Origin: Stereum hirsutum FP-91666 SS1
Taxonomy: Eukaryota > Basidiomycota > Agaricomycetes > Russulales > Stereaceae
DNA: 64,000 nucleotides
Assembly (NCBI RefSeq): GCF_000264905.1
Contig: NW_006763131.1
Span: 534,793-598,792, forward strand
Direction: 5' to 3'
The number at the start of each line of letters is the position of its first letter. Within the stretch, counting starts at the first letter, position 1. Shown here piece by piece: positions 26,945 through 47,269 of this stretch. The notes beneath the pieces are model-generated. The model did no database searches. It saw nothing but the letters and a program-made list of their open reading frames with translations, and was not told the origin of the DNA. The position numbers and the translations under genes are program-made.

Positions 26945-28711
26945 CTACGCCACACTCTTCCTTCCACTCTTCCTCCGCCCCGCGCTCTCGCTCTCCGTCG
27001 TCGACGCTCCATACCCCGACATCTCTCTAGCCTTCTCCTCAATCTCCTCCTTCCTATCGTCCCACGCCTTAATAACCCCATGCACGCCGTCCTCCAATAA
27101 CCTGTCCCTCGTCTGCCTAGTATCCCACTCCGGTCCCCACGTGTCCCACCTCACCGTATACCAAACCTCCTCGTCCCTCTTCCTCTTCTTCGAACTACTG
27201 CTCCCAGAATCCGTATGCTCCTCCATCACGATATGCGAAACTTCGTACTCAGGGTCCTCCGCGTCCTCATCAACAGCCCCACGGCACTCGTACGTCTTTC
27301 CGTTTCCGTTCCTCGCGCGACTAGCGGCGGCAGCGGTCGACTTCCTCTTCTTAGAAGACCCCCATTTCGACTTTTTCGATTTCTTCGGCTTAGAGGCGAG
27401 AGGCATCATCATCTCCCTCTGTCTCTCCATCCATTTCCTCGGCACCTCCGTCGTCGGCCTCGGCCTTCCCTCTCCTTTCCCCAACGGATCGAACCGTCCC
27501 CTAACATCAACCTTCTTCGACACCTTCAGGCTCTCCTTCGGATGCTTCAGCCGGGCGTACTTACTCACTTCACAAAGCACGTGCTCGAAATCGACTCTGC
27601 TGACATACGGCGGAGAAGAGGGCGTGAGGCGCGGACGGAGGGAAGGTGCGATACCGTAGGCGGAGAAGTAAAAGTCTTGGTTGTCGTGTAGGTGGCTTAC
27701 GGCGGGGCCGACGTAGGGCCCGATTTGGGGGCCGAAGATTTTGGAGAGGCATTCGGTGGCGCCGGGGCCTAGGAGGGACCAGTTTTCGGGGAAGGAGAGG
27801 GAGGGGATGAGGTTCAGGTCGAGGGATAGTCTGGGAGAATAAGGGTCAGATATATTAAGGTATTTGTACGGGGGTGTGAGGAGAAAAGCGTACTGGTATC
27901 CAAGGAAGGCGCCATTCATGGAGGGATAAAGTTGGACCTGGCCGAGGATCTCTTGAAGAGACTCCGCTTTCGCGAGTTTCTCGCATAGGCCGGTGGTCAT
28001 CATCAACACTAACAGGCGAAGGTGCTTCAGCCAATTTGGACCCTCACCCAACGGAGGAGGCGGCATCTGGTACGCTGCCCCGTACATTTTCGCGCCCTCG
28101 GCACTCGCCTCAGCGAATGCCTCCGTATACGTATCCATGTCAAAGTTCTTCCAGGTGGGTACACCGAAACGATCCTGCAAGAGCCTCCAAGTGTCGTAAC
28201 GCGCAAAGAAACGAAACAGGATCACTCGGAAGGCGGTTTCTTTGAGGTCCTGAGGGCCTTTGGAGATGACCTCGCGGACGATGTATTGCGTCATGCGGTC
28301 GTAGACGCGGTAGACGTTCACGAAGGGATACCTCTGGAAGTATTCGTCCGATGTCCACGGGGCGGGTTCGCCGGCTAGACGACGTTGGAAAATAGCATGG
28401 CGTTCTGCCATCCAGGTGAAGAGTGTCTCGAGCACTGCGGTGGGTTTGAAGGTCATGGTCTGTTCCGTGCCGTCGTCGTCGACACCGATGACGATGGTCA
28501 CCTCTTTGGGTTTCTCTAATTTCGGCGTAGGGAGAGATGGACGCGCTTTGGCCTTGGTCTTGGACTTGCCTTTAGGTGGCAGCGAGACCGACGAGGTTTC
28601 TTTGAGCGGATTCAAGGAGAGTGGTTCGTCTAGAGACGTGAGCGAAGACGTCGCAGAAGAGGTACAAAATGAGGAAAATGGCACGGATGAGGACGAGGGT
28701 GTTTCAGCCAT
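26945..28711 (-). CDS. 5-hmdU DNA kinase-type helical domain protein with chromo-like C-terminus
   Basis: Reads as one open frame, but 27893-27831 is an in-phase 63-base intron (GTACGC..CCCAG). Its removal gives 567 residues from the ATG at 28711 (MAETPSSSS). The N-terminal 75 residues are Ser/Pro/Lys-rich. Residues about 95-340 match the helical domain known from phage thymine-hypermodification enzymes and found in many mushroom genomes: TWMAERHAIFQRRLAGEPAP, PFVNVYRVYDRMTQYIVREV, ETAFRVILFRFFARYDTWRL. After splicing GAFLGYQLSLDLNL leads to LLGPGATECLSKIFG. A Lys/Arg/Ser-rich nuclear-signal-like stretch (KPKKSKKSKWGSSKKRKS) precedes a chromodomain-like segment: YEVSHIVMEEH, VWYTVRWDTWGPEWDTRQT, GVIKAWDDRKEE. 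The role in fungi is unknown; nuclear, chromatin-associated action is an inference from the chromo-like part. Confidence 0.82.
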   Translation of the reverse strand: MAETPSSSSVPFSSFCTSSATSSLTSLDEPLSLNPLKETSSVSLPPKGKSKTKAKARPSLPTPKLEKPKEVTIVIGVDDDGTEQTMTFKPTAVLETLFTWMAERHAIFQRRLAGEPAPWTSDEYFQRYPFVNVYRVYDRMTQYIVREVISKGPQDLKETAFRVILFRFFARYDTWRLLQDRFGVPTWKNFDMDTYTEAFAEASAEGAKMYGAAYQMPPPPLGEGPNWLKHLRLLVLMMTTGLCEKLAKAESLQEILGQVQLYPSMNGAFLGYQYAFLLTPPYKYLNISDPYSPRLSLDLNLIPSLSFPENWSLLGPGATECLSKIFGPQIGPYVGPAVSHLHDNQDFYFSAYGIAPSLRPRLTPSSPPYVSRVDFEHVLCEVSKYARLKHPKESLKVSKKVDVRGRFDPLGKGEGRPRPTTEVPRKWMERQREMMMPLASKPKKSKKSKWGSSKKRKSTAAAASRARNGNGKTYECRGAVDEDAEDPEYEVSHIVMEEHTDSGSSSSKKRKRDEEVWYTVRWDTWGPEWDTRQTRDRLLEDGVHGVIKAWDDRKEEIEEKAREMSGYGASTTESESAGRRKSGRKSVA

Positions 28712-31920: not shown

Positions 31921-32611
31921 TTACAGATCGTACGAATCGTAGCCGAAGACGGTCGTGTTACGGAAACCGACTCGAATGTCTGTCCACTCCGCCCAATTCT
32001 TCTCCATCTCCTCATAGACCTGACCCCAGTCTTCGCAGACATGTGTTGCCCCCGTCCTCTCCACCTCGAAGTCGCGCGTCAGAACATCCGGAGGCTCCAA
32101 CGTCAAATCAGGACTGCACAGAATCATTTGCCGAATATAATTCAAGCAATGTTCCACGTGAGCCTGAATGACCGGCCTGTAGTCTCCATCTAGCGCGGAC
32201 CGCATCAAACGGATACAGTGAAACTGGTGGAACATCGATATCGCAAACGCGCGATGCTCGTCCCCAAGCCTGATATATCCAAAACCCTTGGGCGAGCTCG
32301 TCGCCCATTCCTCAGCGGCATCGAGGCCATGAATCGGGTAGTGTGCGCTTTCTTCGACGGTCATGGCGACGGATGGCCTTTCTTCGAGGTGCCAAACAGG
32401 AGGATAATCCTCTCCTCGGTAGGCTAATATATATCACTTTAGCGTGAACGCAGTCTTTCTAGAGCGAATGTATATACACACTGTATTTTTTTCTTCCTGC
32501 AGGGTTAGGGTCGAACTCCCTGTACAATACGGCATTGAGATTGAGCACGGACAGGGCAAGGGCACACGTCCCAAGAACATAGAGACAGGTTGGGTGTGTC
32601 AGTTGGAACAT
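31921..32611 (-). CDS. UstYa-type (DUF3328) oxidase-like protein, copy 1
   Basis: Two exons (32611-32482, 32423-31921) join in frame to 210 residues. The N-terminus has one membrane segment (CLYVLGTCALALSVLNLNAV). The lumenal part has YRGEDYPPVWHLEERPSVAM, HYPIHGLDAAEEWATSSPKG and FGYIRLGDEHRAF. Both HxxHC motifs that define the family are intact: FHQFHCIRLM and HVEHCLNYIRQMILC. The end has THVCEDWGQVYEEM. UstYa proteins are membrane-bound, probably metal-dependent enzymes that oxidise, hydroxylate or cyclise ribosomal or non-ribosomal peptides in fungal pathways such as ustiloxin and cyclochlorotine (family knowledge). This is the best preserved of three copies here, closest to copy 2 (34581-35555). 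Confidence 0.85.
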
Positions 32612-34580: not shown

Positions 34581-35555
34581 CTACACGTAACAACTCCATG
34601 ATGAAGTAGAAATTACTGTAACTTCGCGATGCTGAGCGGTGACTACGAGCGAGAGCGCGAAGCGAACACTCTGGTCATTGACCAAACAAGATCTTCCGAG
34701 CACTGCTCGACAACATACTGATAACTTTACTCTCGATAGATACTCTCGTCTCCTTTCCCCTGATACCTCCTGCAGGGGGCGACAGCTCAACTGCGCTGTG
34801 CTAGCGTAACGGCGACCGGTTTTACTGGATGAAGTTACTTTGATCAGTCCTCGGATGGATTCTCTCCATGGAAGTGCGTGTATACTCACAGTGTCGAAGT
34901 CATCATCTCGCACCCGTACCCACTCCTCCCAATTTTGGGCCATGGCTTCATAAACGAGCCTCCAGTCTAGACAGGTGTGCGTGCCTCCAGAGCGTTCGAC
35001 ATCGTGGGATCTCCAAAGAGCATCTGCCGGCTCCAAGGTCAAATCTGGAGAGCAGAGAATCATCTGGCGTAGATAATTCAGGCAATATTGTCCTCGTACA
35101 GCTGCAGGCTCACTTCCTTCGAGTAGAACACGGAGAATGCGTAGGCAGTGTGCTTCGTGAGACATGCCTATGGCAAATGTCCGATGCTCTTCCCCGAGCC
35201 TCAAATAACCAAAACCTGCAACTGAGCTCGACGCCCATTCTTCCTTCGCATCTACACCGTGTATAGGGTAATGACCCGTCTCTTCGACGGCCAGTGCTAC
35301 TAAGTGTTCCTCGAGAGGGTAGTACTCAGGATAGTCGTCGTCGATGTATGCTTAGAAATGGAATGTGAGCATTAATACGTCATGGCTTCAAGTACACCTA
35401 CAATACGTCCGAGGTTCATTGAAACCATACTCGGCGCTATTAGCCTTCAGTATGGACAAGGCGAGGTTTGCGATGGAAAGGAGGGCGGGTAGACAAGCCA
35501 GTACAACACCAGCATAGAATTGCAGTCGGGAACGACCATACCAGAAACGAGCCAT
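34581..35555 (-). CDS. UstYa-type (DUF3328) protein, copy 2
   Basis: Exon 1 (35555-35402) gives MARFWYGRSRLQFY and a membrane segment (AGVVLACLPALLSIANLALS). Exon 2 starts at 35350 with YIDDDYPEYYPLEEHLVAL, HYPIHGVDAKEEWASSS and FGYLRLGEEHRTFAIGM, closely parallel to copy 1. The first HxxHC motif is intact (SHEAHCLRIL). In the second, both histidines are lost (RGQYCLNYLRQMILC). GGTHTCLDWRLVYEAM matches the C-terminal block. Sequence similar to copy 1 ends near DDDFDT at about 34892, where GTGAGT could start a last intron. The read-through to 34581 has no family character, so the real C-terminus is probably shorter or in a small exon I could not place. Loss of the second motif suggests altered or lost activity. 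Confidence 0.75.
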
Positions 35556-37439: not shown

Positions 37440-40096
37440 ATGAAAAATTCCTCAAAAATGGGCTCTCCGGTCATTGACCAGAGCAACTTGAATCCGGAGA
37501 AAGACCTGCCTCCAAACCAATCCAACATTCAAGTCGATCCTGTCCCCGATGTCCCTTCAAAGTTAGTCTATCTTCTCCTCTCACAATGACTCGTACTGAT
37601 ACACAGCAGTAATCTTGCGATAGTCATTCCTGCGTAGGACTCTCACCAGCTCTTTTGAATCTGCGCCTGACCGATTTAAACTGTGCAGAATTTTGCTGCT
37701 CAGTATGTCGTCCATGTCCAAGCAGAAGTTGGGCATGATAGTGATTATTCTCAGTTTTAATCCCCGCCCTTGATCAGACAATCACATCTGTGGCACTACC
37801 AACCATCGTCAGTGAACTTGGTGGCCAGAATGCGTACAGTTGGATTGGGGCTGCGTATTTACTTGGTGCGTGAGCTTCGCGTTCATCCTTTCTCAATCGA
37901 GGTGTTGAATCGTGTGTGCGTAGCTAGTGCCTGTCAGTTAGCCCAATCAGTCTTTGAGCTGCTTGTTCTAACGATTTCCTCAGCTTTTTCAACTATCTAC
38001 GGAAGGCTTTCTGTCTGTCGCAATTCGTTGTCTGGCAGAAAATACTCAGTACTCACTGTCTTGGGTAGGACATCATAGGGCGCAAGCCAGTATACTTCAT
38101 TGCCATGACTTTCTTCATGGTAGGATCTGCTCTTGGTGGTGCCGCGCAAAGCTTTTTGTGGCTTGCGATAGGTATTTTCTTTTGTTCAGCTTGTGTATGA
38201 TCCCTGCTGACACTGCTACCGATTGGTAAGCTCGTGGCATTCAAGGTGCCGGAGGTGGAGGACTGATTCAGCTTAGCATGATCACAATTGCCGATATAAG
38301 TTGGTATTTTTCTACTGAGATATCGAATAGCTGTCCTGACTCATCGTTAAAAAGCTCCTTTGGAGAAACGTGGATTTTATATTGGCTTGGTAGGAACGAC
38401 TTGGGGTACGCTCACTTCAATCACAGAACCCCACCATTTCATCTAGAGCTAAATATAAGGACAGGTGTTGCCAGCGTTACTGGCCCCATTGTAAGCGTCA
38501 TGGTATCTTATCCATGAAGGCCTGCTCTCATGTACCATAAAGGTCGGTGGCGCTTTGACGGATCACGCTTCATGGCGGTGGTGTTTCTGGATGGTAAGCT
38601 GTCTCTCATCTCATGTTGATACGACTCATGAGCACCATTCTAATCCTTGCGTAGAATCTTCCTGCAGGAGGCATTCTGTCCTTGATACTTCTATTCTTGC
38701 TGAAGTTGAAACCAGTGCCAAGGCGTCCTTTTGGTCAGGTTGTCCGTCAGTTCGACTTTATTGGACTGTCTCTGGTTATCTCTGGGGTGGCTTGTTTCCT
38801 AGTGGGCCTTGAGGTCGGACAAGATCACTGGTCATCTGCCGCTGCCATTGCTCTTATCTGCATTGGAGTAGTATTAATTATGGGGTGCTGCCTCCATGGG
38901 TTGTTCACCGAGCGTATCCCTGTCTTGCCCTCCCGACTTTTTTGCACGATGACCCCTGCAGCCGTACTGATCTGTGCATTTATCCACGGTATGGCGGTAT
39001 TTACGGGGAGCTACTACATTCCTCTATATTTTCAAGTCTTGGGATCGAGCGCCACAATCGCCGGAATCAAGACCATGGCCTTCAGCCTTACGTCTTCGGT
39101 ATCGGGAGCGTTGGCCGGTATTATATCCGTAAAGGCAGGGTATCGACTGGTACTCTGGGTGTCTTGGGCATTGATAGCGGTTGGTTATGTCAGTACTTTT
39201 TCTCAAAATCAACATTGGATGGTTTTCCGACAATATAGTGGGCTGACAGACGACTAGGGGCTGATGATACGACTCGATAGCTCGACGAGCATGTTTGTAT
39301 CAGCATCACTACGCGAGCGATATCTTGTGACTGACTCTCTTGGCAGCCCTCTGCAGATAGTATATATATTCATTGCTGGAGTGGGAGTGGGAGGCGTATT
39401 CCAAATTCCTCTCATTGGTACGCAATTTTTCGGATATCTCCTGGGCCCCGTGCTCATCATTTGACATTAGCACTTCATGCGAGCATGCCCGTCAGCGATA
39501 TTGCCATGTCTACATCTGCCTTCATGCTTCTTCGGTATGTGAAACAACCACGAATACTATCTTCACGTTTTTAAAATGTCTAGTCATAGGCTACTCGGAA
39601 GCGCTGTCGGTGTCTCCGTAGGCGAGGCAATTTTCGTGACCGAAGTAAAAAAGCGCATCTCTGCCATAACCAACTATAGCGTCGGAGACAGTAATACCCT
39701 CACGGATAATTTGACTGGCCTACATAACATCCAGGTATTTTTCGCCGTTGTTCTTGATTGACTTAGCTAACCGGTGTTCTGCTAGCCTATCAGCACGCGC
39801 AACGAAGTCCTGCATGCTTACAGCCGTAGCTTGTCGGTTATCTGGTATGTATCCTTGTGATTGCCGTGACGTTCACAGTGCTCTCACTCACTTTCTTATT
39901 AGGGAGGTATTGACACCTATTGTCACAGTCGGTTTTCTGCTCTGTAAGTTCTTGGTGTCATTTTCGGAATGAATATTGACGACTACCAGCCTTGTCCGTG
40001 CGCAAATACTCTCTCCACGAGAAGCCGACGGAGGAAGCGGATCCAGCCAAGATACCTGGCGATAAATCACTCATACAAGGGGAAAGTTCTGTCTGA
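37440..40096 (+). CDS. Major facilitator superfamily drug:H+ antiporter-2 type transporter (14-TM)
   Basis: At least ten exons. The hydrophilic N-terminus is MKNSSKMGSPVIDQSN. Exons join in phase through LIPALDQTITSVALPTIVSE (the ALDQTI signature of 14-TM drug exporters), YSWIGAAYLL, a 9-base microexon and FSTIYGRLSDIIGRKPVYF. Next come [73 protein letters not shown] and MNLPAGGILSLILLFLLKL. Later membrane spans include YYIPLYFQVLGSSATIAGI and GVGGVFQIPLIALHASMP. The hydrophilic C-terminus has RKYSLHEKPTEEADPAKI and ends at 40096. All motifs are intact, so the exporter looks functional. It would move small molecules out of the cell and is a natural partner for a biosynthetic locus. Confidence 0.87.
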
Positions 40097-45405: not shown

Positions 45406-47269
45406 TCATGATGTTACGACCCCTATCAACTCCTTCTCCAACAAAGCGACCGCGTGTTCCAACTCATCCTTGGGATGCCCCGTCGAAGCCCATTCACTAT
45501 TCTGCTGAATCTCCTTCGCAAGCCTCGTCAGATCCCAGTCGCTCGAATCTGAGCCACGTTGAGAGTCATGGAATGCATATTGCAGGCCACCACGGCGCGA
45601 TCGCTCAAGAACATCATAAGCGAATGGTAGGCGGATTTGAGAATACACTTTCAGAGCTCGAGGCGCGTTGTCTCGTGTGACACCGGGATGTGAAAGAAGG
45701 TTCGACAGGACGTAAGCATCCTGGGGAACGGATACAGCGTGGTGAGTTACACCCGAGAGAAGAATGACGGATCGGCGCACTGTACCTCGATGGCTTGTGC
45801 CGCCCCCGCTCCTTGAAATGGGGTCATAGCATGGGCCTGGATGAAGTTCAGTATCCAGAGCATATGAACAATCGTACACTGGTAAGGAAAACAACGCACT
45901 GCATCACCCAGGAGCACCACGCGTGAGTCGACGAAAGACGGCAGCCCATTTACAACGTTGACGGCCCATTGATTGACAGTCAGGCCGTCCATACACTTCA
46001 AGATAGTGATCACGATCAGAATTCAAGAGTAATAACACAAAGGATACGGAGTGACATACGCACCCCAATGAGGTCTTGGACTTCGGGCTCCCAGCCACGG
46101 AATGACTCTATCACTGCCTTAGTATCGACGTCGGTAGTGATCCAGGGTTCAGGGTACACAGTTCCTTCCCTGTTATAGTCAGCCTCAAATACAGCGACGT
46201 TCACGAGGCGACCTTGCGAGATGGGGTAGACCATCAGGTGCTGTAAAACGAAGTTCAAAAACAAAATTGAATCAGACAAAGGACGGGTTATGATGTCTGA
46301 GTACTTACACGGTCTTTTCCTAGATACTTCGAAGCACTCAGTAAACAAATCTAGGCATCATCATGTTAAGAAAAGAAGACTAACTTGAAGATTCCTAGTG
46401 AAGGCTCGATGATTTGGAGATATAGCGCGGAGTTTCTCTGCGGGAATGAGAGCTCGTAATACGAGAACTCCACTCCAGCGCGCCCTAATATGTGATCGCA
46501 GCTCCGATGCTCTGAGATTCTCGCCGTCTAGCTCCTCCTTTGTCGCCAGTGCCTCGAACATAGATGAGCGGACAACGGATTTCACTCCATCCGCTCCGAT
46601 GAGAATGTCGCAGGTGGCACTAGAGCCATCTTCGAAGTGTAGGGTGATGGGCTCAGAGGCCTTGTGAGGTGATTCCTCGTATGCAACCAGGCGTTTAGAC
46701 GGGAATGTTGCACAGCGAGAAGACAAACGTTTCATAAGAACCCCGTGGAATTCTGAGCGCAGGAAAGTTGTATATCCGCCTGACGAAAAGTGAGCAACAC
46801 AGAATGCTTGTTGGAAGGACGCCAGTCTCTCACCTCGAGTCATAGTATCCATGAAACTTATACCTTCACCTTGGTCCGACTTACGACAGTGCGTAGCGGG
46901 GACTTGGAAGGAAAAAATTGTTTTAGAGAGGGAGAAAATGTCTGGAAGAATGTTCTTTTACCCATGTCTTCGGAAGGGGACGCGGGCAAAAGCTGCAACA
47001 AGTCCTCCTCTAATCCTAGCTGCCTGAGAACCATCCACCCTCTCCAAGTCACCCCGATACCAGCACCAATCTCGGCGAACTTAGAGGCAGCTTCGAAGAC
47101 GTTAACCTCGATATTCTTACACAGCCCAAGGGCGTATGCCGCAACTATACCCCCAACGCCACCACCACTACAACCAGGACAGGATCAGGGACCAATCGCT
47201 TCATCATCCGTCAATTCGAGGACCTACTCACCATACTGCTACTCGCATTTTGTGAGGTGTGTTGCTCAT
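45406..47269 (-). CDS. FAD-dependent aromatic-ring hydroxylase-type monooxygenase
   Basis: About seven exons. The start at 47269 (MSNTPHKMRVAV) splices to CGGGVGGIVAAYALGLCKN, the FAD/dinucleotide-binding GxGxxG strand-loop. Then come VFEAASKFAEIGAGIGVTWR and a middle part with LRSEFHGVLMKRL. The FAD/NADPH DG motif is CDILIGADGVKSVVRSSMF. Later exons give HLMVYPISQGRLVNVAVFEA, then SRVVLLGDA joined to AHAMTPFQGAGAAQAIE, the GD motif that binds the FAD ribityl chain, and a helical C-terminus (KVYSQIRLPFAYDVLERSRR). All cofactor motifs are present. Group A flavin monooxygenases of the salicylate-hydroxylase type usually hydroxylate aromatic or electron-rich rings; the substrate is unknown. Divergent from UstYa copy 3, with which it could share a promoter. 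Confidence 0.87.

Follow-up and report, generated by a model that had tools for sequence, protein, structure and literature searches.

The spliced gene and its two domains

The window analysed here, a 64,000-nucleotide stretch (positions 534793-598792) of contig NW_006763131.1 from the basidiomycete Stereum hirsutum FP-91666 SS1 (order Russulales), carries a minus-strand gene whose product joins a helical domain of the HMUDK_hel family to a C-terminal chromodomain. In positions of the window, the gene and its parts are the following.

26945..28711, minus strand: whole gene; start codon ATG at 28711, last base of the stop at 26945, spliced product of 567 aa
27831..27893, minus strand: intron of 63 nt, GT..AG, after codon 273 (Gln); in frame and stop-free
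27536..28441, minus strand: HMUDK_hel domain (residues 91-371), split by the intron; PF18723 303.7 bits, phrog_2396 E 4.8e-39
27338..27388, minus strand: basic linker, residues 421-437 (KKSK, KKRK); low prediction confidence, nuclear-localisation-like by eye only
27017..27256, minus strand: chromodomain, residues 465-544, with cage residues Y468, W501 and W504; from AF2 + VIA and the cage columns

No stop codon interrupts the open reading frame (ORF) at 26945-28711 between its ATG and its terminal stop, the 63-nt intron included. As the initial annotation had proposed, removal of the intron at 27831-27893 yielded a protein of 567 residues. The protein P0001 (STEHIDRAFT_126805, Stereum hirsutum FP-91666 SS1) showed 100% identity over 100% of these 567 aa, and the same splice is therefore predicted by NCBI. 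In the predicted fungal proteins P0002, P0027 and P0055, extra residues were found exactly between Q273 and L274, suggesting that the same intron had been retained in them, a sign of common descent. When the Stereum genome was searched with the PF18723 profile, one gene only was matched, as two exon pieces.

The Pfam HMUDK_hel model (PF18723) matched the spliced protein with an E value of 1.6e-90 and 303.7 bits (cut-off 25) over residues 91-371 and profile positions 1-278 of 281; the unspliced ORF was matched with an E value of 1e-85. The family membership first recognised by eye was thus confirmed far over the cut-off, and the three stretches quoted for it all lay within the match. An NCBIfam search of the fungal proteins gave no match. 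Forty proteins, 10 of them fungal and 30 prokaryote-type, were aligned, and 19 columns were invariant, Stereum included: F130, N132, R135, D138, Q142, F169, T174, G267, F269, Q273, E288, G294, G296, F305, D353, C359, E360, Y364 and R366. K303 was present in all 30 prokaryote-type rows but in only 7 of the 10 fungal rows. Since the 19 family-invariant residues are retained, the fungal copies give the impression of being functional and not degraded.

A kinase role of the protein alone was not supported. The protein had no kinase match in Pfam and no credible P-loop, and kinase activity of the fungal protein by itself was rejected for want of the latter. The sole occurrence of a Walker-A pattern was rejected as a P-loop because it is located in the low-confidence linker and is present in 2 of 55 fungal proteins.

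The predicted fold of the helical domain resembled the structures of phage 5-PmdU glycinyltransferase, of queuosine salvage and of the AGOG DNA glycosylase, and may thus be a base-flipping fold. These structural neighbours suggest a base-flipping transferase or a glycosylase-like fold rather than the pyrophosphorylase named at first. In Pfam, the fungal protein had no match to the profile of helix-hairpin-helix (HhH-GPD) DNA glycosylases up to an E value of 10, and a profile search of PDB sequences returned chance matches only.

For the C-terminal segment, none of the Pfam chromo models passed its cut-off in the Stereum protein, PF00385 included; the last 122 aa gave only an MSL3_chromo-like match of 14.9 bits (cut-off 28). 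The proposed chromo-like domain nevertheless stood on other grounds. The predicted C-terminal fold is a chromodomain, orthologues carrying PF00385 align with the Stereum segment, and weak PDB sequence matches to the chromodomains of CBX4, CBX7 and CHD1 were obtained (E 0.013-0.17). Moreover, a chromo signature, which was composed after the alignment had been seen, was present in 49 of 51 fungal proteins of at least 370 aa, in 0 of 35 prokaryote-type relatives and in 0 of 3600 shuffles. All three cage columns, which we take to be those of the HP1 chromodomain, were occupied by an aromatic residue in 33/33, and HMUDK_hel was fused to a chromodomain in 41 of 52 named fungal rows. Because the aromatic cage looks intact and the fusion is conserved, a chromatin role may reasonably be supposed, and the cage and the fold suggest that the C-terminus would read methylated lysine. 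In one protein, P0031 of Lenzites betulinus (949 aa), an extra DnaJ domain (PF00226) stands beside HMUDK_hel and chromo, probably through a gene-model fusion.

Relatives in bacteria and phages

At least 350 relatives were found in bacterial and archaeal genome contigs, the best with 41% identity to the query. The viral scan gave 36 relatives, with 35% identity for the best viral contig. Bacterial neighbourhoods were counted in the best 80 of these at least 350 loci, ranked by similarity to the query. By profile, the neighbours comprised thymidylate synthase (TS)-like genes in 48 loci, MazG-like genes in 53, CapP-like M78 peptidases in 44, CapH-like regulators in 32, TIR in 16 and NMAD2 in 9. 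These types were far commoner near the domain gene: the counts within 4 kb versus farther were 50/2 for TS, 52/1 for MazG, 41/2 for CapP, 34/0 for CapH, 19/4 for TIR and 8/0 for NMAD2, compared with 746/381 for all ORFs. Pfam matched Thymidylat_synt (25.0 bits), Peptidase_M78 with Inhibitor_I42, ThsB_TIR and Nmad2 among the bacterial neighbours, and PADLOC matched capP (E 2.2e-17) and capH (E 2.4e-13); no PADLOC model matched HMUDK_hel or the TS-like protein. A single-pass profile count gave 24 kinase-like ORFs in the bacterial loci, and later kinase counts were discarded, the profile having drifted to nearly every locus. In the DefensePredictor report, a 5-hydroxymethyluracil kinase and a thymidylate synthase are among the newly validated phage-defence domains (PMC13092281).

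Several further genes were observed in the bacterial loci. AcpS-like genes (17/80), acyl-carrier-like genes (5/80) and papain-like genes (14/80) were detected by profile, for example in L049, L089 and L016. These genes, of which the AcpS and acyl-carrier names were assigned by eye, hint that an acyl group or another carrier-bound moiety may take part in the bacterial system. At L059 3780-4769, a CapP-like M78 peptidase and a chagasin-type I42 protease-inhibitor domain form a single protein, and papain-like proteases adjoin the CapP-like peptidase gene in some loci; the two observations possibly reflect a built-in protease/inhibitor pair.

In phages, a tblastn search with the prokaryote-type member P0010 returned 450 records, all below 60% identity. 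PF18723 was matched in five of ten phage proteins scanned, namely EP75 ORF126 (E 1.9e-83), LuckyBarnes gp38 (4.6e-68), M6 gp55 (8.1e-56), PaMx11 gp50 (5.6e-41) and Montesquieu MONT_52; MONT_42 had no PF18723 match. PF18724 was present in PaMx11 gp46 and M6 gp51. Pairs of a P-loop protein (by eye) and HMUDK_hel were adjacent in M6 (gp54-gp55) and PaMx11 (gp49-gp50), and kinase and HMUDK_hel were fused in P0006, P0045 and L096. In LuckyBarnes, a thymidylate synthase gene and two glycosyltransferase genes lie just upstream of the HMUDK_hel gene, and in Montesquieu a thymidylate synthase/hydroxymethylase gene adjoins it. These neighbours place phage HMUDK_hel in a context of modified thymine, where the helical protein partners a kinase. 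PaMx11 gp49 (L131 39217-39786) and M6 gp54 (L132 21686-22249) are annotated as terminase small subunits; they were read here as P-loop kinases and are probably misannotated.

A quick tree was built from 91 rows. In it, one side of a branch was made up of the 21 fungal rows, with a Shimodaira-Hasegawa-like approximate likelihood ratio (SH-aLRT) support of 95, or 100 without the Asterophora protein P0066. The five phage rows of known genomes branched apart (SH-aLRT 89), IMG/VR rows were intermixed with bacterial ones, and no single bacterial group was resolved as the fungal sister. In a larger FastTree, fungal clades of 57 and 60 had support of 100 and 66, respectively. Of the fungal branches, that of P0066 (Asterophora parasitica) diverges most; this protein carries a chromodomain, its GPGA region looks more bacterial, and it may have had a separate history. 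The initial description of the domain as phage-type was therefore only partly right: the family name and phage members such as M6 gp55 agree with it, but the closest relatives found lie in bacterial genome assemblies (up to 41% identity, versus 35% for the best viral contig). Phage as the closest source was rejected on this difference and on the separate phage branch, in a comparison that takes in the best 80 of at least 350 loci by query similarity, with mixed IMG/VR rows and an ambiguous fungal sister. We infer one old transfer from bacteria to Basidiomycota.

Surroundings of the gene in the Stereum genome

The neighbourhood scan was partial and covered 20 ORFs, 19 of the 63 listed and one more. 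These encode a cullin, a short-chain dehydrogenase, two UstYa-type proteins and others. Neither a TET/JBP gene nor a transposase was among the 20 ORFs; no kinase partner was present among them either. Two UstYa-type ORFs, one TRI12/MFS-type transporter and one flavin adenine dinucleotide (FAD)-binding ORF are grouped at 31924-32433 (minus), 34584-35351 (minus), 38655-39254 (plus) and 46364-46957 (minus), possibly a biosynthesis cluster for a small peptide resembling ribosomally synthesised and post-translationally modified peptides.

Genome-wide, weak searches run with no positive control gave no match to PF18724, the TS-like protein or M6 gp54. PF02223 was found at one place, probably the housekeeping dTMP kinase, and PF00145 gave eight matches. 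PF20515 had no match, and the controls were likewise unmatched. A Tet_JBP match of 27.8 bits, below the cut-off of 34.9, was located on another contig, unlinked to the gene (C11:1721319-1721564, minus strand, locus L006); by eye, its reading frame has a 2-oxoglutarate-dioxygenase-like core with HxD and a distal His/Arg.

Interpretation and comparison with known systems

Taking the gene, its two domains, their conservation and the predicted folds together, we tentatively propose, with a probability of about 0.45, a basidiomycete chromatin protein in which a bacterial-type base-modification domain is combined with a methyl-lysine-reading chromodomain, that is, a histone-guided modified-base protein, either catalytic or reading. 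The chromodomain would recruit the protein to nucleosomes with methylated lysine, H3 methylated at lysine 9 (H3K9me) being a guess from the nearest folds. The helical domain, which we take to be akin to the amino-acid:DNA transferases of phages and to glycosylases of the HhH type, would then capture a modified pyrimidine in DNA, such as 5-hydroxymethyluracil, by base flipping, and the captured base may be altered or held for another enzyme. The retained invariant residues suggest that the helical domain still binds or processes a ligand, and the phage and bacterial gene neighbours of HMUDK_hel point to a thymine-derived base or nucleotide as that ligand. In a fuller form, which we consider possible but doubtful, a bacterial immune-type enzyme was captured early in Basidiomycota and is steered by its chromodomain to methylated-lysine heterochromatin, where it would make, change or remove a base derived from 5-hydroxymethyluracil.

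It is conceivable, if rather improbable, that the protein is a non-catalytic reader, whose old active site binds the modified base while the chromodomain adds a second mark. The lack of a P-loop and of a partner kinase in the searches described, together with the fused reader domain, would fit such a protein, but it keeps the polar residues that are invariant among the prokaryote-type proteins, which is more than binding alone would obviously require. An unlikely alternative is a DNA glycosylase, brought to chromatin, that would cut out oxidised pyrimidines, for instance 5-hydroxymethyluracil or TET products (which we take to be possible substrates), as a fungal counterpart of vertebrate thymine DNA glycosylase (TDG). 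This is opposed by the missing Pfam glycosylase match, by bacterial and phage relatives that sit among base-synthesis and kinase genes rather than repair genes, and, in our own reading of the hairpin, by the HhH catalytic Lys/Asp, which do not seem to be conserved at the expected places. The kinase-HMUDK_hel fusions and the adjacent pairs of M6 and PaMx11 would agree with half of a two-part 5-hydroxymethyluracil DNA kinase, working in trans together with a P-loop kinase that is unrelated or went unrecognised; with no M6-gp54-like match in the uncontrolled genome search and a sole PF02223 place that is probably housekeeping, we regard this as quite improbable. Lastly, chromodomains are described as frequent in fungal retroelements (PMC2864245), but it is highly implausible that the protein is a domesticated element protein or a selfish one and plays no part in base chemistry on chromatin, given the single genome copy, the common intron place, the fungal branch at SH-aLRT 95-100 and the absence of a transposase from the 20 nearby ORFs scanned.

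The fuller form, if true, would mean that fungi possess a previously unknown system of DNA modification, in which histone marks are tied directly to thymine chemistry. To our knowledge, such base chemistry is known only from phages and, for base J, from trypanosomatids. Should the domain still be active on DNA, base chemistry would come under the direction of a histone mark, and whether fungi modify thymine would become a question that can be tested on a single named gene. It would also provide a further example of a defence-type component from bacteria being put to use in eukaryotic chromatin. As a reader without catalysis, the protein would still represent a new type of recognition, of two marks at once. 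Both domains are already known, and databases label both on many of these proteins. The HMUDK_hel family was reportedly named by Iyer and colleagues in 2013. Our literature search found no description of the fungal HMUDK_hel-chromodomain fusion; Iyer et al. 2013, outside its reach, may mention it.

Among known systems, the closest relatives in the matches listed are the bacterial HMUDK_hel operons (up to 41% identity), which have a multi-gene setting and no chromodomain, whereas the fungal gene is solitary among the ORFs scanned. The phage HMUDK_hel proteins belong to the same profile family as the fungal ones but lack the chromodomain, and those examined are encoded beside P-loop, hydroxymethylase or glycosyltransferase genes. 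PUGT, the 5-PmdU glycinyltransferase of phage PaMx11 (PF18724 ADDT; PDB 8z2m, 8z2n), is a structural neighbour of the fungal domain, but the fungal protein had no Pfam match to PF18724 up to an E value of 10, and hhalign against this family gave 0.3% for the fungal profile and 14% for the bacterial-type profile. Identity to QNG1/DUF2419 of queuosine salvage and to the AGOG 8-oxoguanine DNA glycosylase was 7-10%, with no sequence-profile match. The nearest folds of the chromodomain are the H3K9me readers Rhino, MPP8, SUV39H1 and CBX7, from which the Stereum domain differs by a KKRKR insert and by carrying W instead of Y at the third cage position.
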